64,000 bases of DNA. Source: Tistrella mobilis (GTDB lineage Bacteria; Pseudomonadota; Alphaproteobacteria; Tistrellales; Tistrellaceae). Below, piece by piece: positions 3,736-60,606 of this stretch; position 1 is the first letter of the stretch; every line of letters begins with the position of its first letter. The translations under genes and the position numbers were made by a program. The stretch lies in the NCBI RefSeq assembly GCF_039634785.1, contig NZ_JBBIAB010000025.1, positions 1-64,000 of the forward strand, given 5' to 3'. The notes below the pieces were generated by a model. It was not told the DNA's origin, did no database searches, and worked only from the letters and a program-made list of their open reading frames with translations.

Positions 3736-3737
3736 CC

Positions 3738-41474: not shown

Positions 41475-41755
41475 TCGGCAGCTGCCGTCAAGCGGCGGCG
41501 TGGCGCATGTAAACCGCCATTTGCAGAGCAGAATTCGCGACATGAAACGCGGTATGTGACCTTCACTTCATATGGTTAAAAATCAGGAAATCCGGGGCGT
41601 AAAGCATCATCTGGCGCACAGCTTAACAGCCGTTGTGTGACGATCGGGGTTTACTGTTGCGTGATGCAAAGCTTTGGTGAAGGATGATGAGGCACGGGCC
41701 TGACCAGGCCCGTGTTGACCCCTGTCCGACATATCCTTCCCGGGACGTCCTTACG
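41475..41755 (+). other. 281-bp intergenic region
   Basis: No open frame with support. AT-rich stretch around 41560-41600 should contain the IalB promoter. A perfect 10-bp hairpin follows at 41693-41714. Confidence 0.4.
41693..41714 (+). other. Perfect 10-bp stem in the leader of the IalB-like gene
   Basis: CACGGGCCTG and CAGGCCCGTG separated by two bases, about 40 bases before the start codon. Too far from a T-tract for a terminator; may stabilise the mRNA leader or act as an operator. Confidence 0.4.
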
Positions 41756-42423: not shown

Positions 42424-45400
42424 ATGGCGAAGTCGGGTTCCTTCCTGAATTGCGGGAACATGACGGCCATCGGGGCCCTCCTCGGTCTCGGCGTCACGGG
42501 ATGCCTGATCACAGGAGCCATGATCACGGTCGGGCCGGCATTTGCCGGCAATGCCGAGGTCTCGACCGGGCCGGCCTATTATTATGTCAACCAGCAGCCC
42601 TCGCCCGGCACCGGATCCAAGGGATCGAACGCCAGCTTCAACGGCTTCAGCTGCGACAAGCCCGATAGTGGCGGCCAGGGCCCGACCGGCACCGCCGTGA
42701 CCGCGACCGTCACGCCCGGCATCTCCACCACCACCGCCTATGGCGGCACGCTGGTGGTCGCCGGCAGCACCGGCGGTACCGGTGGCACGGGTGGTTCCGA
42801 CAAGACCGGCGTCTGCGGCAATGGCCGCGGCGGCGGCACCGGCGGCACGGGCGGTGCCGTCACCGTCACGCTGAACGGCGCCAGCAGCGACGTCTATCCC
42901 ATCGCCAACACCACCATCGTCGCCTACAGCCAGGGCGGGACCGGCGGCACCGGCGGCAACACCAACGATCCCGGCGCCCATGGCGGCGATGGCGGGTCGG
43001 GCGGTGCCGGCGGCACGGTCACCGTCACCAACAACATGGCGCTCAACATCCAGGGCGGTTCGTCGTCGCTGGGGATCGTGGCCCAAAGCGCCGGCGGCCA
43101 GGGCGGCGACGGTGGCAACAACAATGGCGGCCTCTGGGGCAATGGCGGCGACGGCGTGCCCGGCGGTGCCGGCGGCAACGTCACCATCACCAACAATGCC
43201 GCGATCACCACCGCGGCCGGCACCCCGCTCGCCGCCCAGTCGATCGGCGGTTTCGGCGGCGATGGCGGCAGCAGCAACGGCACCTTCGGCGGCTATAGCG
43301 GCGGCGGCGGCTATGGCGGCAATGCCGGGCTGGTCACGATCAACAATATCGGCGTGCTGACGGTCGGCACGGCCGCGAACCCCTCGGCCGCGGCCGGTGC
43401 GACCGCGATCTATGCCCAGTCCGTCGGCGGCGGCGGCGGCAATGCCGGTGTCGCGGCCGGGCTGGTGGCGCTGGGTGCCGATGGCGGCAAGGCCGGATCG
43501 GGCAGCCTGGTCACGGTCAACAATTCCAGCACCATCACCGCCTATGGCCCATCCTCGGTGGGCATCTTCGCCCAATCGGTGGGCGGCGCCGGCGGCAGCG
43601 GCGGCATGGCCTTCTCGGCTTCAGGCAGCAGTGCTTCGGTCGCGGTCGGCGGGTCGGGCGGCGATGGCGGATCGGGCGGGTCGGTGGCGGTGAACAACAC
43701 CGCCGATATCTGCACCGGCAATGGCTGCATCCCCTCGCTCGCCACCACCCCCGTCACCACCGACTCGGCCGGCGGCGCGGTCGGCGTGCTGGCGCAGTCG
43801 GTGGGCGGCGGCGGCGGTGTCGGCGGCATGGGTCTCTCGGGCTCAGGCTCGGGCCTCGCCTTCGCGGTCGGCGGCTCGGGCGGCGGCGGCGGCAATGCCG
43901 GCTCGGTCGCCGTGCTCAGCACCGGTTCGATCACGACGGTCGAGGTGAACTCGGCCGGTATCCTCGCCCAGTCGGTGGGCGGCGGCGGCGGTGTCGGCGG
44001 CGGTGCGGTCGCGCTCTCGGCCAGTTCCGGACAGAGCGCCTCGCTCTCCCATGGCGGATCGGGCGGCAGCGGCGGTTCGGCCGGGTCGGTCGCGGTCAAC
44101 TGCAACAGCTTCAGCGGCGATTCCTCCGCCGCCGGCGCCTGCAGCGGCCAGGGCCGGCTGGGCGGGTTGACCACGGGCAAGACCATCTCGACCGTCGGCG
44201 ACGGCTCGTCGGCCATTGCCGGCCAGTCGATCGGCGGTGGCGGCGGCTCCGGCGGCTATGCGGTCTCGCTGGCCGCCGGCTTCCAGGGCAGTTTCGCGCT
44301 GTCTTACGGCGGCAAGGGCGGCAAGGGCGGCAATGGCGGCCAGGTCTATGTCAGCCCCAACGGCATCACGCTGACCACCACCGGCGTCGGCGCCTCGGCC
44401 CTGGTCGGCCAGTCGATCGGCGGCGGCGGCGGTGGCGGCGGCTCGACGGTCGATGCCAGCCTGGCGGTCGCGAACAGTGCCCTCAGCTTCGGCGTCGGCG
44501 GATCGGGCGGCGCCGCGGGTGCCGGCAGCACGGTGATCGTCGAGAACACCGGCAGCGTCATCACCACCTCGGGCGACAGCTCGCACGGCATTCTGGCCCA
44601 GTCCATCGGCGGCGGCGGCGGCTCCGGCGGCTCGGCGCTGGGGCTTTCGGCCAGCCCGCAGCTGGCGGTGTCGCTGGGTGTCGGCGGGTCGGGCGGCGCC
44701 GGCGGTGCCGCGGGCGCGGTCACCGCCCACAATTATGCCGCCAACAGCAGCCAGACCGCTGCGATCACCACCTATGGCTATGGCGCCAGCGCCATTCTGG
44801 CGCAGTCGATCGGCGGTGGCGGCGGCAATGGCGGCTACACCACCTCGGGCGCGCTCAGCTATTCCAGCGGCGCTTCGGCCGCGATCGGCGGTGCCGGCGG
44901 CAGCGGCAATAATGGCGGCACGGTCCAGGTGGTCAACACCGGGCTGATCAACACCTATGGCGGCGGTGCCGCGGCGATCGCCGCCCAGTCGATCGGCGGC
45001 GGCGGCGGTTCGGGCGGCTATGCGGTCGCAGGTTCGATCAGCGGCTCGGTTTCGGCCAATATCGGCGCCGGCGGCAGCGGCGCCTCGGGCGGTGCCGGCG
45101 GTGCGGTGACCCTGGTCAATCAGGCCGCCGTGACGGTTTCGGCCGCCAGCACCGGCAACGCCCCTGCCCTTCTGGCGCAGTCGATCGGCGGCGGCGGCGG
45201 CTCGGGTGGCTTCTCAGGCGCCGCCGGTCTCAGCTCGAACGGCACCGCCAGCATGGCGGTGGGCGGCGGCGGCGGCAATGGCGGCACCGGCGGCACGGTC
45301 ACCGTCGACAATTATTCGGCCCTCACCGTCACCGGGCCGCTCTCGCCCGGCGTGGTCGCCCAGTCGATGGGCGGCAATGGCGGCTCGGGCGGTTTCGCCA

Positions 45401-48400
45401 TCGCCGGCTCCTTCGGCGAAAGCGGCGCGGTCTCGGCCGCGATCGGCGGCGGCGGCGGCAAGGGCGGCCGCGCCAGCCAGGTGACCGTCACCATCCAGGG
45501 CGGCGGGCGCGTCTCGACCACCGGCCATCAGTCTGCCGGCGTTCTGGCCCAGTCGATCGGCGGTGCCGGCGGCAATGGCGGCTGGGACATCGCCGGCAGC
45601 CTGGGCGGGCTGGGTTCGGCCGGCGTCAGCCTGGGCGGCAGCGGCGGCGGCGGCGGTGCCGCGGGCGGCGTGACCATTGCCACCTACGACACCATCACCA
45701 CCACCGGCCTTCTGTCGCACGGCATCGTGGCACAGTCGATCGGCGGCAGCGGCGGCCTCGGCGGCTTCAGCGCCGGTGCGGCGGGATCGACCATCGCGGC
45801 CCCGGCCGTCGCGGTCGGCGGCTATGGCGGCAGCGGCGGCACCGGCGGCACGGTTACGGTCAACACCTATACCGGCATCTCGACCGCAGGCGATCTTGCC
45901 ACGGCAATCATCGCCCAGTCGATCGGCGGCACCGGCGGCAGCGGTGGCGCCGCCTATTCCGGCTCGGTGTCGACCGGCAACCCGGCCTCGAAGATCTCGG
46001 TCGGTGCGGCCGGCGCCACCGGCGGCAGCGGCGGATCGGGCCAGAATGGCGGCGCGGTCTCGGTGACGGTCGCCAACAACCTGGTCACCAGCGGGTTCGA
46101 CGCCTATGGCATCATCGCCCAGTCTATCGGCGGCGGCGGCGGCAATGGCGGCAATGCCTCGGCCTTCGCGGCCTCGGCCTCGGGCGGCGGCGAGAAGTCG
46201 GAAAGCGGTTCGGCCTCGGTCGCGATCGGCGGGTCGGGTGCGGCCGGCGGCAATGCCGGCGCGGTCGCGGTCACGCTCTCCGGCAGCATCCAGACCGGCA
46301 TGGCCGGTGTCGCGCCGGGCAATCCGGGCGCCGGTGACCGCTCGGTCGCCATCCTGGCCCAGTCGGTGGGCGGCAGCGGCGGCAATGGCGGATCGGCCTA
46401 TGCCAATGCGATTTCAGGCACGGGCGCCATTTCGGTCGCGGTCGGCGGCGGCGGCGGCACGGGCGGCACCGGCGGCAAGGTCACGGTCTGCGGCAATGTC
46501 AGCTCGGGCAGCTGCAGCAATCCCTGGGGTGGCGTCACCGCCACCGGCGGCAGCATTCTGACCTATGGCAACCACGCAAGCGCCATCTACGCCCAGTCGG
46601 TGGGCGGTGGCGGCGGCCGCGGCGGCTATTCGGAAAGCAGTGCGTCCAGCAACAAATACGCCGCCTCGCTGGCGGTGGGCGGCTTCGGCGGCGGCGGCGG
46701 CAATGCCGATGCGGTGACGGTGGTCGCCGGCGGCACGCTCGCCACCACCGGTGCCGGGTCGACGGCGATCTTCGCCCAGTCGGTCGGCGGCGGCGGCGGC
46801 GATGGCGGCACGGCCACCGCTTCGGCCACCGGCCAGCAGGGCGGCGCACTGGATGGCGGTGTCGCGGCCTATACCGGCACCGGCTTCGCCCAGCAGACCA
46901 ATACCGGTGCGGCGGTCGCGACCGCCGCCCAGTTCTCGCAGAGCGGCCCGGCCGCTTCGACCGACGAGGAAGCCGATAACGGCGTCGGCGCCTCGCTCGC
47001 CATCGGCGGCGCCGGCGGCAAGGCCGGCAATGGCGGCGCCGTGCTGGTCAGCAGCGTCGCCACCGTCACCACCTCGGGCATGCTGTCGAACGGCATCACC
47101 GCGCAGTCGGTGGGCGGTGGCGGCGGCAATGGCGGCTCGGCCACCACCAATGCGGCCGGCGGCAATTATGCCGGCTCCATCAGCCTGGGCGGCACCGGTG
47201 GTGGCGGCGGCGCCGGGTCGACCGCAACGGTCGTGAACACCGGCAGCATCACCACCAGCGGCCTGCAATCGGCGGCGATCTTCGCCCAGTCGGTCGGCGG
47301 CGGCGGCGGCAATGGCGGGGCGGCCTCCAGCACGGTCGAAAGCGGCGGTTCGGGCGCGCTCTCCTTCGGCCTCGGCGGATCGGGCGGCGGCGGCGGTGCG
47401 GCCAATCTGGTCACCGTGCTGAATTTCGGCACGCTCAGGACCACGGGCATCAATTCGGCCGGCATCTTCGCCCAGTCGGTGGGCGGCGGCGGCGGCAATG
47501 GCGGCGGCGCCACCACGGCGGCCACCGCGGCCCCGGCCTCGGACGACGACGAGGAAGACGGCTCGACCAGCGCCTCCACCGGCTCCGTGCCGACCTCGGG
47601 TTCCGGTCAGTCGAACAGCAGCCACAATTCGGCCTCGGCCGGCAAGACCGGCTCCACCTCTCAGGGCAGCCAGGCGGGCGCCGATGGCGGCTATGCCGCC
47701 GGCCTCGCGATCGGCGGCTCGGGCGGCGGCGGTGCGGCCGGCGGCGGCATCGTGGTCACCAACTCGGCCAGCATCACCACCGGCACCTCCGACGGCAAGG
47801 GCGGGCTCAATTCGCAGGCGATCTTCGCCCAGTCGGTCGGCGGCGGTGGCGGCAATGGCGGTTCGGCCAGTTCCAACGCCGATGCCGGCAAGGCCAGCGT
47901 CGCGCTTTCGATGGGCGGTACCGGCGGCGGCGCCGGCGCGGGCGGTGCGGTGAATGTCGGCCTCGGCGGCGGCACGCTCACCACCTATGGCGCCAATGCG
48001 GCGGCGGTCTATGCCCAGTCGGTGGGCGGCGGCGGCGGCAATGGCGGCTCGTCCAGCTCCACCACCGGCTCGGGCGGCTCGGCCTCGGTGGCGCTCGGCC
48101 TCGGCGGCTCGGGTGCCGGGGGCGGCGCCGGCGGCAGCGTGAATGTCTGCGGCAGCATTTCGAACAACATCTGCAACGGCGATCAGGCGCGCCCCACCTC
48201 CATCACCACCTGGGGCGATCTCTCCTACGGCATCTATGTCCAGTCGGTGGGCGGCGGCGGCGGCAATGGCGGCGCGGTCACCACCTCGGCCACCGCCGGC
48301 CAGGCGGATGACAGCGAACCCGGCGCCAGTGTCTCCAGCGGCTCCACCGGGACCTCTGCCTCCACCTCCAAGGGTGTGGCGATGTCGGCCGGCCTCGGCG

Positions 48401-51400
48401 GCTCGGGCGGCGGCGGCGGGTCCGGCGGCACGGTTTCGGTGAACAGCGCCACGACCATCCAGACCGCGGGCGCCCATGCAACCGCGATCTACGCCCAGTC
48501 GGTGGGCGGCGGCGGCGGCACCGGCGCCTCGGCCACCACCAATGCCAATAGCGGCGCCTATGCCACCAGCTTCGCGCTCGGCGGATCCGGCGGCAATGGC
48601 GGGGCCGGCGGCGCCGTCTATGTCGTGAATGACGGCACGCTCGCCACCTACGGCTTCCTCTCGCACGGCATCTTCGCCCAGTCGGTCGGCGGCGGCGGCG
48701 GCGATGCCGGCGGCGCATCCTCGACCTCCGCCCAGGGGGGTGAAGCCTCGCTCGCCATGGCCCTCGGCGGATCGGGCGGCGGCGGCCAGAACGGCCAGGG
48801 CGTCACGGTCACCAGCCGCGGCGTGATCACCACGGCGGCCGGCGCCGCGCATGCGATCGTCGCCCAGTCTGTTGGCGGCGGCGGCGGCCTCGGCGGCTCG
48901 GCACAGTCCAGCGCGTCGGGCGGCAAGATTTCGGCGCCGGTCACCCTCGGCGGCGGCGGCGGCATTTCCGGGTCGGGCGGAACCGTCAGCGTTTACATCA
49001 CCCGCGACATCACCGCCTCGGGCATCGGCAGCGGCGCGGTCATCGCCCAGTCGATCGGCGGCGGCGGCGGCATTTCCGACATCATCGACATCACCAGCGC
49101 CACCCGCGCCTCGGCTTCGGCCAGCCTGACGCTCGGTTCGTCGTCGAGCAATGCCGGCGACGGCGGCAAGATCCTGGTCAGCACCGGCGGCGGCACCTCG
49201 GCGCTGATCCAGACCGGCGGCGACAATGCCAGCGCGCTGGTCGTGCAGTCGATCGGCGGTGGCGGCGGCATCGCAACCTTCAGCGCCGGCAAGATTTCGG
49301 GCGCGGTTTCGCCCACCTTCACCCTCGGCGCCAGCCGGGGCGGCGGCAGCGGCGGCACCAGTGCGGCCGATGCGGTGATGCTGACCCTGGGCGACAGCGG
49401 CGGCACCACCTCGATCGAAACCTGGGGCCGCAATTCGATGGGTGTCGCGGTCCAGTCGATCGGCAGCGGCGGCGGCATCGCCGGCTTTGCGACCACCTCG
49501 GCCGGCAGCACCACCGCCACGGCGCAGCTCGGCCAGTCGGGCGGCGGCGGCAATGGCCGCGCGGTTACGCTGTCGGGAACGGCCAGCATCATCACCCATG
49601 CCGACAATGCAATCGGCGCGGTGGTCCAGTCCGTCGCCGGCGGCGGCGGTGTCGCCCTCGCCGCGGCCGGCCCCGGGGCCATCTTCTCGGGCAGCACGCG
49701 GCTCGGCGCCACCGGTGGCGGCACGGGTGACGGCGGCACGGTGAACGTCAACCTGACCGGCGGACGGATCGTCACCAACGGCTTCAACGCCCATGGTCTG
49801 GTCGTCCAGTCGATCGCGGGCGGCGGCGGCCTTTCCGGTATCCGCACCACCAGCCTCACGCTCGGCGGCGTGGTGGCCGGCTATGGCAACACGGTCACGG
49901 TCGCCAGTTCGTCGGCCATCACCACCTATGGTACCTCCGCCTCGGGCATCATCGCGCAGTCGATCGGCGGCGGCGGCGGTATCGGCACCAGCGACGGCCA
50001 GGTCAGCTTCGCCAGCGCGCCCAGCGGATCGAATTCCCGCCAGGTCCTGGTCACCACCACCGGGGCCGGCGCGGTCCAGACACAAGGGGCCACCTCTTTC
50101 GGCATCCTGGCGCAGTCGATCGGCGGTGGCGGCGGCGCGGTCTTCGGGCCGAACCGGCTGTTCGGCGCAACCTTCGGCGCCTCTGTCGCCTATGCCGAGA
50201 GTATCGGCGTCGATGTCGGCGCCAATGTCATCACGACGGGTATGGCCTCGGTCGCCGTGCTCGGCCAGTCGATCGGCGGCGGCGGCGGCGTGGTCGCCTC
50301 CACCGCGGCGGATGCGGGTTTCACCTCTTACGGCACCGGCCTGAACGGCGCCAATGCCAGCGGGCTGAACGCAGGCACCGTCGCCATCACCACCCGCAAC
50401 CAGACCATCGCCACCGCCGGCGCCAATGCCGCGGCGGTGGTGGGCCAGGCGGTGGGCGCAGGCGGCGCCTTCTTCACCCAGGCCAATACCGCAAGCCAGG
50501 GCTCGGTCGGCATCACCGCCTGGCTCGGCACCGTCAATGGCAGCGGCAATGGCGGCGCCGACGTGGCCGACGCGATCAAGATCGCGCTGGGTGCAGGCGG
50601 CACCACCACCATCGACACCTCGGGCGCCAACGCCTTCGGCGCGGTCGCCCAGGCGGTCGGCGGCGGCGGCGGCATCATCGCGATGTCCAACCAGGCGACC
50701 GGCGGCACCATCAACGGCGCCAATCTGGGCCAGCGCGGCGGCAGCGGCAGCGGTATGGCCACCACCCTGACCGGCACCGCGAATATCGTGACCCGCGGCA
50801 CCAATGCGCTGGGTGCGGTTGCCCAGTCGGTCAGCAATGGCGGCGGCATCGTCGTGGTCTCGGGCCAGGCGGGGGCGGCCTTCACCGGCAATGTCCGGCT
50901 GGGCGCCATCGGCGGCAGCGGCAGCAACGGCCGGACGGTCACCGTGAACCTGACCAATGGCAGCATCGCCACCGGCGGTGCCTATGCCCATGGTCTGGTG
51001 GCCCAGTCCATCGCCGGCGGCGGCGGCATTTCCGGCGTGCTCACCAACGACGTGACGCTGGGCGGCGTGGTCGCCGGCAATGGCGGCGCCGTCAGCGTCG
51101 CAAGCTCAGCGGCGGTCACCACCTACGGCACGGCGGCAGCCGGCATCGTCGCCCAGTCGATCGGCGGCGGTGGCGGGCTCGCCATCGGCACCGGCGCCGT
51201 CACCTTCGCCAATACGCCCAGCGGGTCGAATGCCAGCCAGGTGACCGTCACCACTTCCGGCGGTGGCGCGGTTCAAACCCAGGGCGCCACCTCTTTCGGC
51301 ATTCTGGCGCAGTCGGTGGGCGGCGGCGGCGGCGCGATCTTCGGGCCGACGGCCCTTCTCAGCACCAATCTCGGGACCGGCATCGGCTATGCCGGCAATA

Positions 51401-54400
51401 TCGGCATCGATGCCGGCGCGAACGTCGTCACCTCGGGCACGGGTTCGGTCGCCATCCTGGTTCAGTCGATCGGCGGCGGCGGCGGCGTGATCGCCTCCAC
51501 CACCTCGAATGCCGGCTTCGTCAATTACGGGACGGGGCTGAACAGCGCCGGCAACGGCAATCTGAACGCCGGCACCGTCGCCGTCACCACCCGCAACCAC
51601 ACCATCGCGACCTCGGGCGCCAATGCCGCAGCCGTGGTGGGCCAGGCCGTGGGTGCCAGCGGCGTGTTCTTCACCCAGGCGAACAGCGCCAGCCAGGGCG
51701 CGGTCAACGTCACCGGCTATCTGGGCACCGTCAGTGCGGGCGGCAATGGCGGCGCGGATGTCGCCGACGCGATCAAGGTCACGCTCGGCGCCGGCGGTCT
51801 CACCACCATCGACACCTCGGGCGCCAATGCCTTCGGCGCGATCGCCCAGTCGGTGGGCGGCGGTGGCGGCATCGTCGCGATTGCCACCCAGGCGACCGGC
51901 GGCACGGTCAAGGGCGCCATTCTGGGCCAGCGCGGCGGCAGCGGCACGGGCCTTGCCACCACGCTGACCGGCACCGCGAATATCGTGACCCGCGGCACCA
52001 ATGCGCTGGGCGCGGTCGCCCAGTCGATCAGCACCGGCGGCGGCATCTTCGTGGTGTCGGGCCAGTCGGGGGCGACCTTCACCGGCAATGTCCGGCTGGG
52101 CGCCACCGGCGGCAGCGGCAGCGATACCCGTGCGGTGAATGTCAACCTGTCGGGCGGCAGCATCGCCACCGGCGGCGCCTATGCCCATGGTCTGGTGGCC
52201 CAGTCCATCGCCGGCGGCGGCGGCATTTCCGGCGTGCTCACCAACGACGTGACGCTGGGCGGCGTGCTGGCCGGCAAGGGCGGCACGGTCGCCGTCTCCA
52301 GTTCGGCAGCCGTCACCACCTATGGCACGGCGGCGGCCGGCATCGTCGCCCAGTCGATCGGCGGCGGTGGCGGGCTTGCCATCGGCACCGGCGCCGTCAC
52401 CTTCGCCAATACGCCCAGCGGGTCGAATGCCGGCCAGGTGACCGTCACCACCTCCGGCGGCGGCGCGGTTCAAACCCAGGGCGCCACCTCTTTCGGCATT
52501 CTGGCGCAGTCGGTCGGCGGCGGCGGCGGCGCGATCTTCGGGCCGACGTCTCTCCTCAGCACCAATCTCGGCACCGGCATCGGCTATGCCGGCAATATCG
52601 CGGTCGATGCGGGCGCGAACGTCGTCACCTCGGGCGCGGGCTCGGTCGCCATCCTGGGTCAGTCGATCGGCGGCGGCGGCGGCGTGATCGCCTCCACCAC
52701 CGCGAATGACGGCTTCGTCAATTACGGGACGGGCCTGAACAGCGCCGGTAACGGCAATCTGAACGCCGGCACCGTCGCCGTCACCACCCGCAACCAGACC
52801 ATCGCGACCTCGGGCGTGAACGCCGCAGCCGTGGTCGGCCAGTCGGTGGGCGCCGGCGGCGTGTACTTCACCCAGGCCAATACCGTCAGCCAGGGCACGA
52901 TCAACGTCAGCGGCTATCTGGGCACGGTCAGTGCGGGCGGCAATGGCGGCGCCAATGTCGCCGATGCGATCAAGGTGACGCTGGGTGCAGGGGGTGTGAC
53001 CACCATCGACACCTCGGGCGCCAATGCCTTCGGCGCGGTCGCACAGTCGGTGGGCGGCGGCGGCGGCATCGTCGCCATCTCCACCCGCGCCAGTTATGGC
53101 AACGCCAAGGGGGTGCAGCTCGGCCAGCGCGGTGGCAACGGCATGGGCATGGCGACCACGGTGACGGGTGCCGCCAGCATCGTCACCCGCGGCAACAACG
53201 CCTTCGGCATCGTCGCGCAGTCGGTCAGCAATGGCGGCGGCATCCTGGCCGTGGCGACCCCCGGGCTGGAGTTCTTCACCGGCACGGCAATCCTCGGCGC
53301 CCGCGGCGGCAGCGGCAACAATGCCGGCAATGCCACCGTCAACCTCTCGGGCGGCGGCGGCATCACCACCACCGGCGTGTTTGCCCATGGCATCGTCGCC
53401 CAGTCGATCGCGGGCGGCGGCGGCATCTCGACGCTGAACACCGATACGGTGCAGATGGGCGGCGGCACGGCCGGCATCGCCGGGGTCGCCAGCGTCACGG
53501 CGCTGGCACCGGTTGCGACGTCCGGCATCGGCGCCAGCGCCATCGTCGCCCAGTCGATCGGCGGCGGCGGCGGCCTGGCGCTCACCAGCTACAATGCCCA
53601 GTTCATCAGCACCACCGGCGGCAGCGATGCCAGCACGGTGGGGGTCACCACCACCGGCAATGGCTGGCTGCAGACCACCGGCAATCTGGGCTTCGGCATC
53701 CTGGCCCAGTCGATCGGCGGCGGCGGCGGTGCCTTCATCGCCCCCAATCACGGCGTCATCGCCAGCTTCGGCGCCTCGGCCGCCTATGCGGGCGGGGTCT
53801 ATGTCGATGCCGGGGCGAATGTGGTGACCACCGGCCAGGGCTCCACCGCCATTCTCGCCCAGTCGGTGGGCGGCGGCGGCGGCGTCATCGCCTCCAGCTT
53901 CGCCGATGCCGCCTATACCAGCTATGTCGCCAATGTCTATGGCAGCAGCGGCGGCAGTGACTATGGCAACAATGTCGCCGTCACCACCCATGGCCAGACC
54001 ATCGCAACCTCGGGCGCCAATGGCGCGGCGGTGATCGCCCAGTCGGTGGGCGGCAGCGGCGTGTATTACGCCCAGACCAACACCGCCGCCCAGGGCAGCA
54101 TCCATGCCACCTTCAACCTGGGCAGCGGGGTCGGCAGCGGCAATGGCGGCGTCAGCCAGACCGATTCGGTCAAGGTGACGCTGGGCAGCGGCGGCGCCAC
54201 CACCATCGACACCTCGGGCGCCAATGCCTTCGGCGTGGTCGCACAGTCGGTGGGGGCCGGCGGCGGCATCTATGCCATCGCCACCCAGTCGACCGGCGGG
54301 TCGATCGACAGCAGCCGGCTCGGCGCCCGTGGCGGCGGCGGTGTCGGCCTCGCCGCCACCGTCACCGGGGCGGCGAACATCACCACCCGCGGCACCAATG

Positions 54401-57400
54401 CGCTGGGCGTGGTCGCGCAGTCGATCAGCGGCGGCGGCGGCATCGCCGTGGTCGCCGGCCAGTCGGGCAGCACGGGCTATTCGGGGCCGGTGACGCTCGG
54501 CACCTATACCGGCGGCGGCGGCAATGGCGGGGTGGTCAATGTCAACCTCTCCGGCGGCAGCATCACCACCGGCGGCGTCTTCGCCCCGGGCCTGGTGGCG
54601 CAGTCGATCGCCGGTGGCGGCGGCATTTCGGGCGTTCACAGCAGCGGTGTCTATCTGGGCGGCTATGTTGCCGGCAACGGCAACACGGTCACCGTCAGCA
54701 GCGGTGCCGCCATCGGCACGATCGGCAATGCCTCGGCCGGCATCGTCGCCCAGTCGATCGGCGGCGGCGGCGGTCTCGCCCTCGCCAATGGCGGCAATGC
54801 CGTCATCCTGAACGCGCCCAGCGGCTCCAACGCCTCGCAGGTGAGGGTCACCACCACCGGCAGCGGATCGGTCCAGACTCAAGGGGCCACGGCCTTCGGC
54901 ATTCTGGCGCAGTCGATCGGCGGTGCCGGCGGCGCGGTGTTCAGCCCGGTGAACCAGGCCACGGCCGGCTTCGGCGCCGGCATCGCCTATGGCGGCAGCA
55001 TCGTCATCGACACGGCGGCGAATGTCGTCACTTCGGGCGCCGGCTCGGCGGGCATCGTCGGCCAGTCGATCGGCGGTGGCGGCGGCGTGATCGCCTCGGC
55101 CTTCTCCAATGCCAACGTCACCAGCTATGGCGTTACCCTGAACGCCGCCAACGCCAGCGGGCTGAACGGCAACACCGTCGCCGTCACCACGCGCACCCAG
55201 ACCATCGCAACCGCCGGCGCCAATGCCGCGGGCGTGATCGCCCAGTCGATCGGCGCCGGCGGCACCTATTTCACCCAGGCAAATGCCGCCTCGCAGGGGG
55301 CGGTGCACACCGCGATCAATCTCGGCACCCCGGTCGGCAAGGGCGATGGCGGCCAGAACACCACCTATTCCACCAACGTCACCCTGGGCGCCGGCGGCGT
55401 CACCACCATCGATACCTCGGGTGCCAATGCCTATGGCGTGGTCGGCCAGTCGATCGGCGGCGGCGGCATCGTCTCCATCGCCACCCTGTCGAGCGGCGGC
55501 TGGATCGATGCCGGCATCATCGGCCAGCGCGGCGGCGGCGGATCGGCCATGCCGACCAGCGTCAGCGGCACCGCGAACATCGTCACCCGCGGCACCAATG
55601 CCGCCGGCGTGATCGTGCAGTCGATCTCGGGCGGCGGCGGCGTCGCCAGCCTGTCCTCTCAGTCCGGCGCCTGGTTCTCGGGGATGGTGACGCTCGGCGC
55701 CACCGGCGGCAACGGCGCCAATGCCAACACCGCCTATGGCTATCTGGCGGCCGGCAGCGTCACCACCAGCGGCGCCTTCGCCCCCGGCCTGGTGGTGCAG
55801 TCGATCGCGGGCGGCGGCGGCATCGCGGGCATCCATACCGATGCCGTTCGCCTGGGCGGGCCGCTCAATGGCAATGGCGGCACGGTCTCGGCAACAAGCT
55901 CGGCGCTGATCACCACCTATGGCGGCGCCTCTCCCGGCATCGTCGCCCAGTCGATCGGCGGCGGCGGCGGTCTCGCCCATGGCGCCGGCCAGGTCTATTT
56001 CAACTCGGCCGTCAGCGGCTCCAATGCCGGCAATGTCTGGCTGACCACCGGCACCGGCGGCACGGTGCAGACCGTCGGCAGTGTGTCCTATGGCATCCTC
56101 GCCCAGTCGGTGGGCGGTGCCGGTGGCGCGGTGTTCTCGGAATACCGCCAGCTTTCGGCCAATTTCGGCTCGGCCATCGCCTATGGCAGCGCCGTGACGC
56201 TGAACGTGCCGACCAGCGTCATCACCAACGGTGTCGGCTCCACCGCCATCCTGGCCCAGTCGGTCGGCGGCGGCGGCGGCGTGGTCGCCTCGGTCTTCGC
56301 CGATGCCAATGTCACCAATTATGGCATCGGCAATATGGGCGGCGGCGGCAGCAATCTGAACGGTGGCGCCGTCTCCATCACCACCCAGAACCAGACCATC
56401 GCCACGACGGCAGCCAATGCAACGGCCGTGGTCGCGCAGTCGGTGGGCGACAACGGCATCTTCTTCACCCAGACCAACACCGCCGCGCAGTCTTCCGCTT
56501 CGGTCAACCTGCAGCTCGGCGCGGTGCGCGGTTCGGGCAATGGCGGGCCGTCGCAGAATGATGCGGTGGCGGGCTATCTGGGCAATGCGGTCATCCAGAC
56601 CTCGGGCGCCAATTCGCTCGGCGTGCTGGTGCAGTCGGTGGGCGGCGGCGGCGGTTTCGCCTCGATCGCAACCCAGGCCTCGGGCGGCAGCATCAATGCC
56701 CGCCTCGGCCAGCAGGGTGGCGCGGGTTCCGCCCAGGACATCACCATCACCGGCGCGCCCAAGGTGCTGACCCAGGGCGTCAACGCGGCCGGCGTGGTCG
56801 CCCAGGCGATCACCGGCGGCGGCGGCGTGATGGCGGTGTCCGGCACCAGCGGTGCGGTCTTCTCGGGCAGCGTCTATCTGGGCGGCACGGGCGGCGGCAC
56901 CAGCGGCAATGCCGCGGTCTCCATGACCCTCAGCGGCGGCAGCATCCAGACCGGCGGCAGCTTCGCGCCGGGCCTGGTCGCCCAGGTGATCTCGGGCGGC
57001 GGCGGCCTCTCGGCCATCAACGCCACCTCGGTCAATCTGGGCGGGACGGTCGCCAGCAAGTCGAACACGCTGACGGTGACCAATGGCGCGGCCATCACCA
57101 CCACCGGTGCCGCCTCTCCCGGTCTCGTCGCCCAGTCGATCGGCGGCGGCGGCGGTCTGGCGCTGGCTGCCACCGGGGCCAGCGTCCGGGTCGGCAACAA
57201 GGCGAGCGGCGCCGACGGCAGCAACATCACCATCACCAGCAATGGCCAGATCTACACCACCGGCGTGAACTCCTTCGGCATTCTGGCGCAGAGCGTCGGC
57301 TCCGGCGGCGGCACGGTGCTCACCACCGGCGGCACGGTCTCGGCGGCGGCCAATGCGTCCAGCAAGGCCAGCGCCGGCAGCGTCACGGTCGGCGTCAACG

Positions 57401-59400
57401 CGCCCATCACCACCACCGGGGCGGGTGCCCATGGCGTGGTCGCCCAGTCCGCCGCCGGCGGCGGCGGCATCGTCACCAACGGCACCACCACCCTGTTCCT
57501 GTCGGGCAATGGCGGTGGCAGCAGCCATGCCGTCTCGGTCTATGTCTATGCCCCGATCACGGTCAGCGGCGCCGGTGCCAGCGCGGTGGTGGCGCATTCC
57601 ACCACCGACCCGGTGGTGGAGATTGCCGAAGGCGTGGTGGTCACCGGCGCGGCCGACGGCCATGCCCTGCTGCTCGACGGCCCGATCAACGAGGTCACCA
57701 ATGCCGGCACGCTGCAGACCCTCGCCGGCGGCGACGGGCTGGTGATCGACAGCCGGATCGGCGACACCACCGTCACCAACAAGGGCACGCTGACCGGCAG
57801 CATCAAGCTCAGCGACGGCGGCGCCAATCTGCTGACCAACCAGGCCGGCGGCACGATCAATTCGGGGGCGAGCATCGACCTGGGCGGCACCGGCAGCTTC
57901 ATCAATCACGGCCGGCTGCAATCGGCGACCGCGGGCGTGGTCACGACCACGATCAATGGCGGCTTCACCCAGTCTGCCGATGGCGAGCTGCAGCTGCGCG
58001 TCGATCATGCGACCGGCAAGGCCGACGGGCTGCACATCACCGGCGCTGCCAGCATGGACGGCAAGCTGTCGCTCGCCACGATCAACAGCGGTTCGGTGAA
58101 GCCGGGCCGGCTGGCGATCGCCGATGTCCTGGTCTCGGATACCGGGCTGGCCGCGGGCAATCTGGAGCTTTCGGCCCCCGCCAGCGCGATCCTGAGCTAC
58201 AGCCTGACCAACACCGATGGCCGGCTGGGCATCCAGGCCGATGCCGATTTCACGCCCGAGGGCCTCAGCGGCTTCGGCCGGCGGATCGGTGAGCTGCTGG
58301 GCCGGGTCCAGAGCGAGGCGGCCTCGGAATATTCCAAGGCGATCACCGCCGGGCTGGTCTCGATCAGCGACACGGCGACCCTTGATCGCGGCTATCGCAG
58401 CGTCGGCGATACGGGGGCGGCCAGCGTGCCCCAGAGCATGCTCACCGCCAGCACGCGCGCCATGCAGACGGTGACCGGCCGGCTCGACAGCTGGCGGATG
58501 GGGGCGGCAGCGGCGGCGCCCGGCAGCCGGGAGGCGGCACTCGACCAGACGGCGACCGCGCCCGGGGGTGGCAATACGGCCGGAGGACGGGCCTGGATGA
58601 CGCCGGAAGGCGCCTATGAAACCGGCGGCGGTTTCGACGGGCATTATTTCGGCACCACCATCGGCATCGATGGCGGCGCCGATGACGGCAGCTTCCTGGT
58701 CGGCGGCGCCTTCACCTATGGCGAGACCAGCTACGACCTGGACGGGCTCTCGGCCAGCGGCACCGGCAAGCAGTACGGGGTGAGCGTCTATGGTCTGCGT
58801 CGCTTCGGCGAGGCCTATGCCTCGGTCATCGGCTATGCCGCGACGGGCGATACCCGCTACACCCGCGATCTGCGCTTCCTGGGCATGCCCCGCGCGGCCG
58901 TGACCCGTTTCGACGGCACCACGCTGGGTGCGCGGCTGGAGGTGGGCTACGCCCTGCCGCTGACCGCAGGGCTGAAGATCACCCCCTTCGCGGCGGTGGA
59001 GCCGACCCGTCTGCATCTGGACGAGGCCCGCGACAGCTTCGGCAATGGCGGCGGCGTGGTCTACGAGGCCTCGGACACGATCTCGATGCCGATGACGCTG
59101 GGCTTCCAGATCGGCGGCCCGGTGACGTTCGAGGACGGCAGCCGGATCGAGCCCTTCTTCCGCGCCGGCTGGAAGCACGAATTCCGGCCCGAGCGCGACA
59201 TCACCCGCCATCTGGCCGAACTGCCCGGGATCGGCTTCCAGGGCAGCGATGTCGAGGTGCCGGAAGATGCCGCCGTGCTCAGGGCCGGCGTGCAGTATCG
59301 CCTGGACGAGGATTTCGACCTGCAGCTGAGCGTCGACTCCGAGCTGTCGGAAGAACGCCGCTCGGTCGGCGGGACCCTGTCGCTGCGCTATCGCTGGTAG
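42424..59400 (+). CDS. Giant glycine-rich autotransporter adhesin (5658 residues)
   Basis: One uninterrupted frame of 5659 codons. Long signal peptide (cleavage near GPAFA-GN, residue 41), a passenger of about 5350 residues with some 80 copies of an [AV]QS[IV]GGGGG motif, and a C-terminal autotransporter beta-barrel (about 5390-5658) ending LSLRYRW with an aromatic last residue. Each motif follows a pattern of two short strands (for example VTVTNxGxITTxG) as in beta-helical adhesins. First half: irregular repeats with acidic and Cys-pair inserts. Second half: seven super-repeats of about 399 residues. It should be secreted through the outer membrane by its own barrel and extend as a fibre mediating adhesion or aggregation. 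GAGAGG lies upstream of the ATG. Size and regularity are exceptional; function is inferred. Confidence 0.9.
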   Translation: MAKSGSFLNCGNMTAIGALLGLGVTGCLITGAMITVGPAFAGNAEVSTGPAYYYVNQQPSPGTGSKGSNASFNGFSCDKPDSGGQGPTGTAVTATVTPGISTTTAYGGTLVVAGSTGGTGGTGGSDKTGVCGNGRGGGTGGTGGAVTVTLNGASSDVYPIANTTIVAYSQGGTGGTGGNTNDPGAHGGDGGSGGAGGTVTVTNNMALNIQGGSSSLGIVAQSAGGQGGDGGNNNGGLWGNGGDGVPGGAGGNVTITNNAAITTAAGTPLAAQSIGGFGGDGGSSNGTFGGYSGGGGYGGNAGLVTINNIGVLTVGTAANPSAAAGATAIYAQSVGGGGGNAGVAAGLVALGADGGKAGSGSLVTVNNSSTITAYGPSSVGIFAQSVGGAGGSGGMAFSASGSSASVAVGGSGGDGGSGGSVAVNNTADICTGNGCIPSLATTPVTTDSAGGAVGVLAQSVGGGGGVGGMGLSGSGSGLAFAVGGSGGGGGNAGSVAVLSTGSITTVEVNSAGILAQSVGGGGGVGGGAVALSASSGQSASLSHGGSGGSGGSAGSVAVNCNSFSGDSSAAGACSGQGRLGGLTTGKTISTVGDGSSAIAGQSIGGGGGSGGYAVSLAAGFQGSFALSYGGKGGKGGNGGQVYVSPNGITLTTTGVGASALVGQSIGGGGGGGGSTVDASLAVANSALSFGVGGSGGAAGAGSTVIVENTGSVITTSGDSSHGILAQSIGGGGGSGGSALGLSASPQLAVSLGVGGSGGAGGAAGAVTAHNYAANSSQTAAITTYGYGASAILAQSIGGGGGNGGYTTSGALSYSSGASAAIGGAGGSGNNGGTVQVVNTGLINTYGGGAAAIAAQSIGGGGGSGGYAVAGSISGSVSANIGAGGSGASGGAGGAVTLVNQAAVTVSAASTGNAPALLAQSIGGGGGSGGFSGAAGLSSNGTASMAVGGGGGNGGTGGTVTVDNYSALTVTGPLSPGVVAQSMGGNGGSGGFAIAGSFGESGAVSAAIGGGGGKGGRASQVTVTIQGGGRVSTTGHQSAGVLAQSIGGAGGNGGWDIAGSLGGLGSAGVSLGGSGGGGGAAGGVTIATYDTITTTGLLSHGIVAQSIGGSGGLGGFSAGAAGSTIAAPAVAVGGYGGSGGTGGTVTVNTYTGISTAGDLATAIIAQSIGGTGGSGGAAYSGSVSTGNPASKISVGAAGATGGSGGSGQNGGAVSVTVANNLVTSGFDAYGIIAQSIGGGGGNGGNASAFAASASGGGEKSESGSASVAIGGSGAAGGNAGAVAVTLSGSIQTGMAGVAPGNPGAGDRSVAILAQSVGGSGGNGGSAYANAISGTGAISVAVGGGGGTGGTGGKVTVCGNVSSGSCSNPWGGVTATGGSILTYGNHASAIYAQSVGGGGGRGGYSESSASSNKYAASLAVGGFGGGGGNADAVTVVAGGTLATTGAGSTAIFAQSVGGGGGDGGTATASATGQQGGALDGGVAAYTGTGFAQQTNTGAAVATAAQFSQSGPAASTDEEADNGVGASLAIGGAGGKAGNGGAVLVSSVATVTTSGMLSNGITAQSVGGGGGNGGSATTNAAGGNYAGSISLGGTGGGGGAGSTATVVNTGSITTSGLQSAAIFAQSVGGGGGNGGAASSTVESGGSGALSFGLGGSGGGGGAANLVTVLNFGTLRTTGINSAGIFAQSVGGGGGNGGGATTAATAAPASDDDEEDGSTSASTGSVPTSGSGQSNSSHNSASAGKTGSTSQGSQAGADGGYAAGLAIGGSGGGGAAGGGIVVTNSASITTGTSDGKGGLNSQAIFAQSVGGGGGNGGSASSNADAGKASVALSMGGTGGGAGAGGAVNVGLGGGTLTTYGANAAAVYAQSVGGGGGNGGSSSSTTGSGGSASVALGLGGSGAGGGAGGSVNVCGSISNNICNGDQARPTSITTWGDLSYGIYVQSVGGGGGNGGAVTTSATAGQADDSEPGASVSSGSTGTSASTSKGVAMSAGLGGSGGGGGSGGTVSVNSATTIQTAGAHATAIYAQSVGGGGGTGASATTNANSGAYATSFALGGSGGNGGAGGAVYVVNDGTLATYGFLSHGIFAQSVGGGGGDAGGASSTSAQGGEASLAMALGGSGGGGQNGQGVTVTSRGVITTAAGAAHAIVAQSVGGGGGLGGSAQSSASGGKISAPVTLGGGGGISGSGGTVSVYITRDITASGIGSGAVIAQSIGGGGGISDIIDITSATRASASASLTLGSSSSNAGDGGKILVSTGGGTSALIQTGGDNASALVVQSIGGGGGIATFSAGKISGAVSPTFTLGASRGGGSGGTSAADAVMLTLGDSGGTTSIETWGRNSMGVAVQSIGSGGGIAGFATTSAGSTTATAQLGQSGGGGNGRAVTLSGTASIITHADNAIGAVVQSVAGGGGVALAAAGPGAIFSGSTRLGATGGGTGDGGTVNVNLTGGRIVTNGFNAHGLVVQSIAGGGGLSGIRTTSLTLGGVVAGYGNTVTVASSSAITTYGTSASGIIAQSIGGGGGIGTSDGQVSFASAPSGSNSRQVLVTTTGAGAVQTQGATSFGILAQSIGGGGGAVFGPNRLFGATFGASVAYAESIGVDVGANVITTGMASVAVLGQSIGGGGGVVASTAADAGFTSYGTGLNGANASGLNAGTVAITTRNQTIATAGANAAAVVGQAVGAGGAFFTQANTASQGSVGITAWLGTVNGSGNGGADVADAIKIALGAGGTTTIDTSGANAFGAVAQAVGGGGGIIAMSNQATGGTINGANLGQRGGSGSGMATTLTGTANIVTRGTNALGAVAQSVSNGGGIVVVSGQAGAAFTGNVRLGAIGGSGSNGRTVTVNLTNGSIATGGAYAHGLVAQSIAGGGGISGVLTNDVTLGGVVAGNGGAVSVASSAAVTTYGTAAAGIVAQSIGGGGGLAIGTGAVTFANTPSGSNASQVTVTTSGGGAVQTQGATSFGILAQSVGGGGGAIFGPTALLSTNLGTGIGYAGNIGIDAGANVVTSGTGSVAILVQSIGGGGGVIASTTSNAGFVNYGTGLNSAGNGNLNAGTVAVTTRNHTIATSGANAAAVVGQAVGASGVFFTQANSASQGAVNVTGYLGTVSAGGNGGADVADAIKVTLGAGGLTTIDTSGANAFGAIAQSVGGGGGIVAIATQATGGTVKGAILGQRGGSGTGLATTLTGTANIVTRGTNALGAVAQSISTGGGIFVVSGQSGATFTGNVRLGATGGSGSDTRAVNVNLSGGSIATGGAYAHGLVAQSIAGGGGISGVLTNDVTLGGVLAGKGGTVAVSSSAAVTTYGTAAAGIVAQSIGGGGGLAIGTGAVTFANTPSGSNAGQVTVTTSGGGAVQTQGATSFGILAQSVGGGGGAIFGPTSLLSTNLGTGIGYAGNIAVDAGANVVTSGAGSVAILGQSIGGGGGVIASTTANDGFVNYGTGLNSAGNGNLNAGTVAVTTRNQTIATSGVNAAAVVGQSVGAGGVYFTQANTVSQGTINVSGYLGTVSAGGNGGANVADAIKVTLGAGGVTTIDTSGANAFGAVAQSVGGGGGIVAISTRASYGNAKGVQLGQRGGNGMGMATTVTGAASIVTRGNNAFGIVAQSVSNGGGILAVATPGLEFFTGTAILGARGGSGNNAGNATVNLSGGGGITTTGVFAHGIVAQSIAGGGGISTLNTDTVQMGGGTAGIAGVASVTALAPVATSGIGASAIVAQSIGGGGGLALTSYNAQFISTTGGSDASTVGVTTTGNGWLQTTGNLGFGILAQSIGGGGGAFIAPNHGVIASFGASAAYAGGVYVDAGANVVTTGQGSTAILAQSVGGGGGVIASSFADAAYTSYVANVYGSSGGSDYGNNVAVTTHGQTIATSGANGAAVIAQSVGGSGVYYAQTNTAAQGSIHATFNLGSGVGSGNGGVSQTDSVKVTLGSGGATTIDTSGANAFGVVAQSVGAGGGIYAIATQSTGGSIDSSRLGARGGGGVGLAATVTGAANITTRGTNALGVVAQSISGGGGIAVVAGQSGSTGYSGPVTLGTYTGGGGNGGVVNVNLSGGSITTGGVFAPGLVAQSIAGGGGISGVHSSGVYLGGYVAGNGNTVTVSSGAAIGTIGNASAGIVAQSIGGGGGLALANGGNAVILNAPSGSNASQVRVTTTGSGSVQTQGATAFGILAQSIGGAGGAVFSPVNQATAGFGAGIAYGGSIVIDTAANVVTSGAGSAGIVGQSIGGGGGVIASAFSNANVTSYGVTLNAANASGLNGNTVAVTTRTQTIATAGANAAGVIAQSIGAGGTYFTQANAASQGAVHTAINLGTPVGKGDGGQNTTYSTNVTLGAGGVTTIDTSGANAYGVVGQSIGGGGIVSIATLSSGGWIDAGIIGQRGGGGSAMPTSVSGTANIVTRGTNAAGVIVQSISGGGGVASLSSQSGAWFSGMVTLGATGGNGANANTAYGYLAAGSVTTSGAFAPGLVVQSIAGGGGIAGIHTDAVRLGGPLNGNGGTVSATSSALITTYGGASPGIVAQSIGGGGGLAHGAGQVYFNSAVSGSNAGNVWLTTGTGGTVQTVGSVSYGILAQSVGGAGGAVFSEYRQLSANFGSAIAYGSAVTLNVPTSVITNGVGSTAILAQSVGGGGGVVASVFADANVTNYGIGNMGGGGSNLNGGAVSITTQNQTIATTAANATAVVAQSVGDNGIFFTQTNTAAQSSASVNLQLGAVRGSGNGGPSQNDAVAGYLGNAVIQTSGANSLGVLVQSVGGGGGFASIATQASGGSINARLGQQGGAGSAQDITITGAPKVLTQGVNAAGVVAQAITGGGGVMAVSGTSGAVFSGSVYLGGTGGGTSGNAAVSMTLSGGSIQTGGSFAPGLVAQVISGGGGLSAINATSVNLGGTVASKSNTLTVTNGAAITTTGAASPGLVAQSIGGGGGLALAATGASVRVGNKASGADGSNITITSNGQIYTTGVNSFGILAQSVGSGGGTVLTTGGTVSAAANASSKASAGSVTVGVNAPITTTGAGAHGVVAQSAAGGGGIVTNGTTTLFLSGNGGGSSHAVSVYVYAPITVSGAGASAVVAHSTTDPVVEIAEGVVVTGAADGHALLLDGPINEVTNAGTLQTLAGGDGLVIDSRIGDTTVTNKGTLTGSIKLSDGGANLLTNQAGGTINSGASIDLGGTGSFINHGRLQSATAGVVTTTINGGFTQSADGELQLRVDHATGKADGLHITGAASMDGKLSLATINSGSVKPGRLAIADVLVSDTGLAAGNLELSAPASAILSYSLTNTDGRLGIQADADFTPEGLSGFGRRIGELLGRVQSEAASEYSKAITAGLVSISDTATLDRGYRSVGDTGAASVPQSMLTASTRAMQTVTGRLDSWRMGAAAAAPGSREAALDQTATAPGGGNTAGGRAWMTPEGAYETGGGFDGHYFGTTIGIDGGADDGSFLVGGAFTYGETSYDLDGLSASGTGKQYGVSVYGLRRFGEAYASVIGYAATGDTRYTRDLRFLGMPRAAVTRFDGTTLGARLEVGYALPLTAGLKITPFAAVEPTRLHLDEARDSFGNGGGVVYEASDTISMPMTLGFQIGGPVTFEDGSRIEPFFRAGWKHEFRPERDITRHLAELPGIGFQGSDVEVPEDAAVLRAGVQYRLDEDFDLQLSVDSELSEERRSVGGTLSLRYRW
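43060..49269 (+). repeat. Irregular glycine-rich repeats in the autotransporter (about 31 units)
   Basis: About 31 units of roughly 55-90 residues, each with AQS[VI]GGGGGxGG followed, usually, by a second Gly-rich string such as GGSGGGGGxGG and a short xVxVxNxGxITTxG strand pair. Lengths vary because of Cys-pair and Asp/Glu/Ser-rich insertions. At the DNA level the units contain GGC runs but few long exact repeats. Confidence 0.85.
49273..57657 (+). repeat. Seven super-repeats of about 1197 bp (399 residues), each with seven sub-motifs
   Basis: Anchored on the FFTQAN-type motif, units start at 49273, 50470, 51667, 52864, 54064, 55267 and 56461, giving spacings of 1197, 1197, 1197, 1200, 1203 and 1194 bp. 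Within every unit the seven sub-motifs keep a fixed order: TTIDTSGANAFG, ANIVTRGTNALG, GSIATGGAYAHG, AAVTTYGTAAAG, GAVQTQGATSFG, ANVVTSGTGSVA, QTIATSGANAAA, each followed by xQSxxGGGG. The second to fourth units are very similar in DNA; the last unit decays near its end (VVAHSTTDPV). Confidence 0.9.
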
Positions 59401-59421: not shown

Positions 59422-60606
59422 TCACGTCCGCGAGCGGCCCGGGATGATCCCGGGCCGTTCGCTTTTGATCCCGAACAGCAGGCGGGTGAGCGCGGTGGCC
59501 GCAAGCGCCCGGGCCAGCCCCCAGGAGACGAGCCCGGAAACCGCCACGATGGCCAGATACTTGACCAGCGGCTGCCCCGACCAGCCGAGCAGCAGATAGC
59601 CCAGCACCACGATCACCGTCTGATGGACGATGTAGAAGGGAAAGGCGAGCCGCGAGAAGCCGCTGAGCCCCGGGACGGGACGGGCCAGATGCCGGCCGGC
59701 CCAGCCGAGCAGGCCGAGGATGGTGGCCCATTCGGCGACCCCCCGCAGCAGCCGGCGCAGGGCGGGCACCGGCAGCGCCCCGGTCATCCAGGCCGCGACC
59801 GCCAGTACAGTTGCAACCGCAGCTATGATCAGAAGCAGGCGACAATGACGTTCGGCTGCTGCCCCCAGCGCCGGCGACAGCGCGAACCAGCCGCCCAGCA
59901 GGATCAGCAGGCCGAAATGCAGGTGATTGGCCCAGTCCCCCGCCAGCGCATGGGTGCTGGGAAAGCCAGGGCGGAGCAGGATTTCGGCCAGCAGGACCGG
60001 CAGACCTGGCGCAAGCAGGGCAAGCGGCCCCGCTGCCGCCACCCGCATGCCGGCACGATCCAGCAGCGCCCGCACCCCGGGCCGGCGCGCAATCAGGAAG
60101 ACCGGCAGCAGCGCCAGGGCATAGACCAGCAGATAGGCCAGGAACCAGAGATGGTGCCAGCTGAAATTCGCCGCCGGATAGCAGCATTCGAAGATCGAGG
60201 GATAGAAGCCCGGAAAGCCGGTGCCCGGGGCAAGGTCGATCGGGCTCGACCGGCCATCGAGCCCCGTGGCCAGACGCTCGACATAGACCTGCGGCGGCAC
60301 CACCAGCAGAATGCCGGCAACCAGCGGCAGGGCCAGGCGCTCCAGCCGTTCGCGCACATAGCGCCCGGGACCGCGCGCCGACAGGCTGTGCATGGCGGTG
60401 ATGCCCGCCAGAAAGAACAGCAGCGGCATCTGCCCGATATTGAACACCCCGATCAGCACATCGGCCGCGGCATAGCGCCCGGCATCCTTCATATGCCACG
60501 GATCGCTGTCGAACAGCCGGGCGGTGTGGAACAGGATCAGGCCAAGGATCACCAGATTGCGCAGGTGATCGATCGCGCGCGAACGTCCGAGGGCGGGTCC
60601 GGCCAT
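59422..60606 (-). CDS. Membrane acyltransferase 3 family protein
   Basis: 394 residues with about ten membrane helices. N-terminal RAIDHLRNLVILGLILFHTARLF matches the acyltransferase-3 opening, with the catalytic-type His in LFHTARL; later features are FLAGITAMHSL and FPFYIVHQTVIVVLGY near the end. Such proteins O-acylate extracellular sugars, peptidoglycan or lipids. ATG 60606 has AAGGTG upstream. The last 14 codons contain the convergent terminator of the autotransporter. It is divergent from a TetR gene whose probable operator lies in the intergenic region. Confidence 0.85.
   Translation of the reverse strand: MAGPALGRSRAIDHLRNLVILGLILFHTARLFDSDPWHMKDAGRYAAADVLIGVFNIGQMPLLFFLAGITAMHSLSARGPGRYVRERLERLALPLVAGILLVVPPQVYVERLATGLDGRSSPIDLAPGTGFPGFYPSIFECCYPAANFSWHHLWFLAYLLVYALALLPVFLIARRPGVRALLDRAGMRVAAAGPLALLAPGLPVLLAEILLRPGFPSTHALAGDWANHLHFGLLILLGGWFALSPALGAAAERHCRLLLIIAAVATVLAVAAWMTGALPVPALRRLLRGVAEWATILGLLGWAGRHLARPVPGLSGFSRLAFPFYIVHQTVIVVLGYLLLGWSGQPLVKYLAIVAVSGLVSWGLARALAATALTRLLFGIKSERPGIIPGRSRT
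59430..59466 (+). terminator. Intrinsic terminator of the autotransporter gene
   Basis: GCGAGCGGCCCGGGAT (59430-59445) pairs with ATCCCGGGCCGTTCGC (59447-59462) at 15 of 16 positions, followed by TTTT. It begins 30 bases after the autotransporter stop and lies inside the last codons of the convergent acyltransferase gene. Confidence 0.85.

Follow-up and report, generated by a model that had tools for sequence, protein, structure and literature searches.

Autotransporters of the type Va class pass the inner membrane by way of a Sec leader, insert a C-terminal barrel in the outer membrane and thread the passenger out C-end first. Many of them undergo processing, and adhesion, aggregation and spacing are the usual roles of such fibres. 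Where a passenger is a beta-helix, it rises about 0.48 nm per coil. A giant of this class, BigE, is a 10,429-residue autotransporter according to the available text of Celik et al. (2012; PMC3419190). Stacked polyglycine-II helices of three to four GGX triplets have been predicted for the mycobacterial PE_PGRS proteins; in the available portion of the review, the PGRS helices are described as a surface-exposed flat sandwich (Berisio and Delogu, 2022; PMC9436101). Known polyproline-II (PPII) bundles include the snow flea antifreeze protein, gp38 of phage S16 and ALK/LTK, among others, and the list of them in the available part of PMC13243192 holds no autotransporter. The locus described here lies in a 64,000-nt stretch of Tistrella mobilis DNA (contig NZ_JBBIAB010000025.1, positions 1 to 64,000; hereafter, the window) and encodes an autotransporter whose passenger is predicted to bring a beta-helix and a polyglycine-II bundle together.

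As the first-pass annotation had claimed, one frame of 5,658 codons occupies positions 42424-59400 of the plus strand, with an ATG start and no internal stop (ORF listing and translation; Table 1). A ribosome-binding-like AGAGG precedes the ATG. The claimed signal peptide could likewise be read by eye as a putative leader whose start is charged, whose core is hydrophobic and which shows an A-F-A motif resembling a cleavage site behind residue 41. Residue 27 is the last of a lipobox-like VTGC; a lipoprotein leader was considered on that ground and dismissed, the congener having no such motif. The C-terminal barrel ending in Trp was confirmed, since PF03797 matched over its full profile with an E-value of 4.9e-41 (141.6 bits vs. 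a cut-off of 26) and the chain closes with LSLRYRW, an aromatic terminal residue. A protein search against barrels and passengers, which had been recommended at the outset, succeeded for the barrel but gave no passenger family in Pfam or NCBIfam: PF03797 is the sole Pfam domain of the 5,658-aa protein, NCBIfam assigned the protein to no family, and no protease domain appeared in either search. Residues 1-1400 showed no PE domain and no other Pfam family. Glycine makes up 25.3% of the whole protein and 25.8% of the passenger, which has a pI of about 5.3.

Table 1. Features of the autotransporter locus, in window coordinates.
Feature	Position	Strand	Remark
IalB-family gene	41684..42325	+	PF06776, E 1.6e-26; 98 nt upstream of the ATG, co-directional
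Whole autotransporter gene	42424..59400	+	5,658 aa, about 514 kDa
Putative leader/signal peptide, residues 1-41	42424..42546	+	Sequence reading
N-terminal (distal) cap, residues 42-219	42547..43080	+	Cys77/Cys131 pair
Distal shaft, residues 220-2342	43081..49449	+	AQS units ~61 aa apart, two GGX-triplet loops each
Modelled part of distal shaft, residues 600-1102	44221-45729	+	Predicted beta-helix and polyglycine-II bundle
Six tandem higher-order repeats, residues 2343-4735	49450..56628	+	395-402 aa, seven units each
Modelled repeats 2-3, residues 2742-3539	50647-53040	+	Structure model
Seventh, partial repeat, residues 4736-5006	56629..57441	+	Counterpart of Ancylobacter terminal units
Beta-helix end, autochaperone-like region and linker, residues 5007-5390	57442..58593	+	Putative role, from position
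Autotransporter beta-barrel PF03797, residues 5391-5638	58594..59337	+	Pfam
Intrinsic terminator-like hairpin	59430..59462	+	15 pairs, directly past the stop

Ten of the 12 cysteines fall into five close pairs (77/131, 430/435, 560/573, 1356/1364 and 1909/1917) located in insert loops, and these pairs likely represent disulphide-closed loops on the shaft. Codon usage over the whole gene was skewed, with no TTA, no CTA and five TCA codons and a GC3 of 88.5%. Antisense ORFs of up to 2,701 aa, including the minus-strand ORF at 51106-59211, are explained by the near absence of these three codons, and antisense coding was rejected. Upstream, a universal stress protein gene (40587-41474) precedes the IalB-family gene, and all three Tistrella genomes retain the two genes; searches at the levels of family and order gave no genomes beyond these three. 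An IalB operon conserved beyond Tistrella was rejected, as tblastn recovered neither this gene nor the stress protein gene at the nine loci of relatives.

In the congener, represented by a four-contig assembly, the same frame is open and measures 5,659 aa. Counted from the homologous ATG, the window protein (5,658 aa) and its congener counterpart (5,655 aa) are 96.8% identical, and the two genes differ by three in-frame indels (5, 1 and 1 codons) over 17 kb. The overall dN/dS was 0.129; it fell to 0.059 in the N half and was 0.18 in the repeat half and 0.13 in the barrel. The strong selection suspected in the first-pass annotation is thus upheld; the gene is real, intact and under purifying selection, and is not a product of chance. 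A third copy is carried by plasmid pTM2 of T. mobilis KA081020-065 (NC_017966.1, 670636-687767), in a record with broken frames, mainly three same-strand CDSs of 503, 3,955 and 772 aa. In protein, these pieces are still 94-98% identical. As annotated there, separate CDSs follow one another, and some of them lie on the other strand. The frame changes lie near residues 470, 4334 and 4895, the one near residue 4334 next to a repeat of about 163 nt, and may be either errors of the record or real. The collapse or frameshift that the first-pass annotation had named as a refutation is seen in the KA081020-065 record but is absent from the window genome and from the congener. Of a 24-kb stretch upstream of the window gene, 85% matches pTM2, at 95%, suggesting that the window gene is probably on a megaplasmid as well.

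Of the 79 AQS-like motifs in the passenger, 31 belong to the N half and 48 to the C half. The total agrees with the earlier count of about 80, but the strict string AQSxGGGGG occurs only 34 times. These motifs are organized in two zones. In the outer zone (residues 220-2342), tandem units of the form [A/V/G]QS-x-GGGGG-x-GG recur at intervals of about 61 aa and each carry a second GGX loop, so that strands alternate with GGX-triplet loops in which glycine recurs at period 3; the inner zone shows a sharp 399-residue period. The sequence GGxGGxGG followed QSx in 26 of 32 N-half motifs vs. none of 49 C-half motifs, the totals exceeding those above because a slightly looser motif pattern was used in the periodicity test. 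The lag-3 glycine contrast of the N half had a z of 7.0, a value reached by none of 500 local shuffles, and it exceeded the shuffles in all six relatives tested (z 5.0-7.9). No such contrast was detected in the repeat half (z 0.5), and three control long autotransporters lacking AQS units showed no triplet periodicity (z -1.3, -3.0 and -3.4).

The six full repeats and the partial seventh are 44-88% identical to one another, and a DNA-level tandem repeat scan scored only short repeats. In a tree of the repeats, copies 1-6 each paired with the same-numbered copy of the congener, repeat 7 was identical in both species, and no repeat had been gained or lost between the two. The pairing by position indicates that the array predates the species split and has had no turnover since; a recent or unstable array is ruled out by these observations.

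The closest relatives outside the genus were the orthologue-like AQS-repeat autotransporters of Ancylobacter polymorphus pB (WP_244451219.1, 2,974 aa), A. vacuolatus and Xanthobacteraceae bacterium 501b, in which about 45% of residues are identical along a span of some 2,700. These orthologues, of 2,974 aa and with open frames of 3,019 and 3,023 aa, have their unit spacings in the same order, parallel to the Tistrella N half, and possess the barrel nearest to that of Tistrella (34% over 411 residues). In Ancylobacter, the cysteine pairs 69/122, 416/420 and 544/557 correspond to 77/131, 430/435 and 560/573. The orthologues differ from the Tistrella gene in their neighbourhood and, at about 3,000 aa, in the lack of the six 399-residue repeats. 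The last six Ancylobacter units plus linker found their best match at Tistrella residues 4737-5238 (37-39% identity), which marks repeats 1-6 as the Tistrella extra; the simpler reading of these alignments is that the six repeats were gained in the Tistrella line and not lost in Ancylobacter. The close homologue of the same architecture that the first-pass annotation had named as a refutation is thus found in part, in orthologues at about 45% identity that are annotated by the barrel alone and for which the searches made revealed no characterisation.

Larger proteins of the same kind occur on plasmids of Sphingobium sp. TKS (WP_145907795.1, 7,174 aa) and S. baderi (WP_323810871.1, 7,137 aa), and Novosphingobium sp. 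RL4 has a 6,093-aa frame. These giants share the AQSxGGGGGxGG units at 61-62 aa, a PF03797-type C-end and the GGX periodicity. Their units are regular nearly throughout, and no 399-residue block was seen in the spacings. In both Sphingobium records (L070, 1-24878; L071, 3178-31191), a SapC-family gene lies upstream and the giant is followed by a 6,525-bp hypothetical-protein gene; the three possibly form a partner set. Further plasmid proteins of this kind are those of Martelella (2,258 and 2,245 aa) and Sinorhizobium meliloti (1,922 aa), and the named examples were drawn from a plasmid-only collection, from which frequency on plasmids vs. chromosomes cannot be read. Genes for a LytTR regulator and a histidine kinase lie directly upstream of the AQS region in Martelella sp. 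AD-3 (L063, 8088-10034) and S. meliloti Ak57 (L068, 4801-6605).

A profile of the N half (E ≤ 1e-20) matched in at least four of 385 genomes of the class, three of them Tistrella, and in at least six of 398 genomes of a phylum-wide sample, all six from Alphaproteobacteria; only three to four candidates per genome were scored, so the counts are lower bounds. A tblastn search of plasmids with the glycine-rich part, run with the low-complexity filter on, matched Tistrella only. Among the 385 class genomes, PF03797 frames of ≥3,000 aa are present in at least nine and frames of ≥5,500 aa in at least four. Autotransporter frames of 5,652 and 5,563 aa at two further alphaproteobacterial loci (L051 and L052) have quite different passengers without AQS units. 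Frames of about 5,500 aa from other places were discarded as relatives, an AQS series being present in none of the ten readable loci out of 12 with long frames. The AQS-GGGGG family is undescribed but not small, and of a known kind, the type Va autotransporters.

The structure of residues 600-1102 was predicted with AlphaFold2 from a 12-row alignment in which some rows were repeat copies taken from the same proteins. Among five models, the best had a mean pLDDT of 91.7 and a pTM of 0.85, and the other four had mean pLDDT values of 65-78. It was all beta, each unit contributing five strands together with two glycine loops, one of about 9 and one of about 12 residues; DSSP assigned the loops to neither helix nor strand, being blind to polyglycine-II vs. 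coil. Foldseek alone gave no match at E ≤ 0.001, the first row being the springtail antifreeze protein 7jjv (E 0.033, prob 0.69), and phage S16 gp38 and the PE_PGRS structures were absent among the best Foldseek rows, which excludes nothing. When the 117 chains ranked by Foldseek were re-scored with VIA-align, the N-half model aligned with the SRRP beta-helix (Z 14.8, rmsd 3.0, 215 residues) and the Fap2 autotransporter (Z 14.7, rmsd 3.9, 208 residues). It also aligned, through other residues than in the beta-helix matches, with 125 of the 126 residues of 7jjv (Z 12.0, rmsd 1.6 Å, model range 2-272), a putative side-by-side PPII arrangement drawn from one predicted model. The range 2-272 covers about 4.4 units and thus supplies about nine glycine loops for the nine helices of 7jjv. 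The glycine-rich composition may, of itself, draw the predictor toward bundles in its training set.

The model of repeats 2-3 (pLDDT 83.6, pTM 0.91) was a beta-helix whose best match was the Vag8 passenger (Z 21.3, rmsd 3.2, 342 residues), and pertactin was matched with a Z of 13.8. A sequence search of solved structures found no relative of passenger or barrel, and a viral fold library gave no match at E ≤ 0.001. In both modelled regions, then, the passenger is predicted to fold as a right-handed beta-helix. Eight units aligned with about 230-270 residues of solved beta-helices and, in the inner half, about 13 units with about 350, spans that suggest one coil per unit. At that rate the approximately 80 units would build a fibre near 40 nm in length, and at two coils per unit one of about 80 nm.

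The reading that we favour, and think somewhat probable, is that this gene encodes a type Va autotransporter forming a very long, rigid, monomeric outer-membrane fibre, in which a polyglycine-clad distal shaft is mounted on a stalk lengthened by duplication and would act in adhesion or spacing. The putative leader would direct the chain through Sec, the PF03797 barrel would insert in the outer membrane, and the passenger would be threaded out C-end first and fold coil by coil into a right-handed beta-helix, as modelled. Residues about 2343-5006 would form a membrane-proximal stalk of plain beta-helix, which tandem duplication of the 399-residue block would have lengthened in Tistrella. Between residues 220 and 2342, the two loops of each AQS unit, with three to four GGX triplets each, are predicted to lie side by side as polyglycine-II helices, and the model and the triplet periodicity suggest that the resulting bundle runs along the beta-helix. 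Such a bundle would explain why the GGX triplets need to be in register and why constraint is strongest in the distal half. The completed fibre would help cells to adhere or aggregate, or would hold them at a distance from one another or from a surface. To the more specific proposal we give an even chance: a composite passenger fold in which a beta-helix with two GGX strands per coil carries a two-layer polyglycine-II bundle over some 30 units as a glycine-lined rigid shaft, in a family that is thin in Alphaproteobacteria, often on plasmids, and tuned in reach by stalk blocks (here, six of 399 residues).

The main competitor accepts the beta-helix autotransporter but regards the glycine loops as flexible, disordered decorations and not as packed polyglycine-II helices. 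The lower confidence of four of the five N-half models, the DSSP assignment (which fits polyglycine-II and coil equally) and a Foldseek E-value for 7jjv no better than 0.033 are all consistent with disorder. Loops of this sort would hardly be expected to show a triplet periodicity that is kept in six of six relatives, lengths near 9 and 12 residues that correspond to three and four triplets, a solved bundle superposed over 125 residues at 1.6 Å, or a dN/dS of 0.059 in the N half, and we consider disorder unlikely, if a serious contender. Somewhat less likely still is a passenger that does not remain anchored but is cut off and released, to serve as a secreted polymer or as part of a matrix; processing is common among autotransporters, but the searches of Pfam and NCBIfam revealed no protease domain in this passenger.

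A packed polyglycine-II face might instead act as an ice- or hydration-binding surface, like that of the springtail antifreeze protein to which the model was matched. The match to 7jjv, however, concerns backbone arrangement and glycine composition, and the hosts of the family are mesophilic bacteria from soil, sludge and plants, so that we regard this as the least credible of the readings. Hardly more credible is a decaying gene or an assembly artefact, in which repeats have produced the length by chance and the cell never makes the protein in full. The split CDSs of KA081020-065, with the repeat of about 163 nt at one break, point in that direction; against it stand the intact frame in both the window genome and the congener, repeats that pair by position in two species (an old array, assembled alike twice), a dN/dS of 0.13 and the identity still retained by the three KA081020-065 pieces. 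The anchored fibre with a polyglycine-clad shaft remains our preferred reading.

If this reading is correct, a family so far named by its barrel alone carries one of the largest polyglycine-II assemblies known, one that is built into a beta-helix, and the extreme glycine content has a reason. The passenger would also show how nature can build fibres that are stiff and poor in charge, and would give a clear example of stalk length altered by duplicating a 399-residue block while constraint on the distal part remained strong. Searches of the open-licence literature found no paper tying polyglycine-II to autotransporters; a single paper naming both PGII and autotransporter, on gastric cancer, appears irrelevant. 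No study of the AQS family, no paper on a Tistrella autotransporter and no occurrence of the string AQSIGGGGG were found in the literature searched, most subscription journals being outside its scope. The first-pass annotation had proposed a cell-surface fibre not described before; an uncharacterised fibre is still the best reading, but larger proteins of the same kind exist. Its emphasis on size did not hold, since the Sphingobium proteins and BigE (as given in the available text of PMC3419190) are longer and other Alphaproteobacteria have unrelated passengers of similar size (about 5,600 aa). It did not include the two zones of the passenger, the 399-residue higher-order repeat or the polyglycine-II signature.

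Among solved structures, the passengers of Vag8, pertactin and Fap2 are right-handed beta-helices like the Tistrella passenger model, Vag8 and pertactin being the best-matching folds for the repeat half, but they are smaller and AQS/GGX units are not in evidence in them. The nine-helix polyproline-II backbone of 7jjv superposes on the glycine loops of the model, but belongs to a stand-alone, 126-residue ice-binding protein. The PE_PGRS proteins, likened here by description only, are not autotransporters, and the available part of PMC9436101 describes no parallel beta-helix core for them. BigE, as described in the available text of PMC3419190, resembles the Tistrella protein in being a type Va giant that grew as blocks of its passenger were replicated, with internal repeats of 69 residues besides; the likeness is one of description only, and BigE differs in its betaproteobacterial relatives and in its eight-fold segment of ~309 residues (220-528). 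Compared with these systems, the novelty of the Tistrella protein would reside in the predicted composite of beta-helix and polyglycine-II and in its two-zone build, and not in its length.
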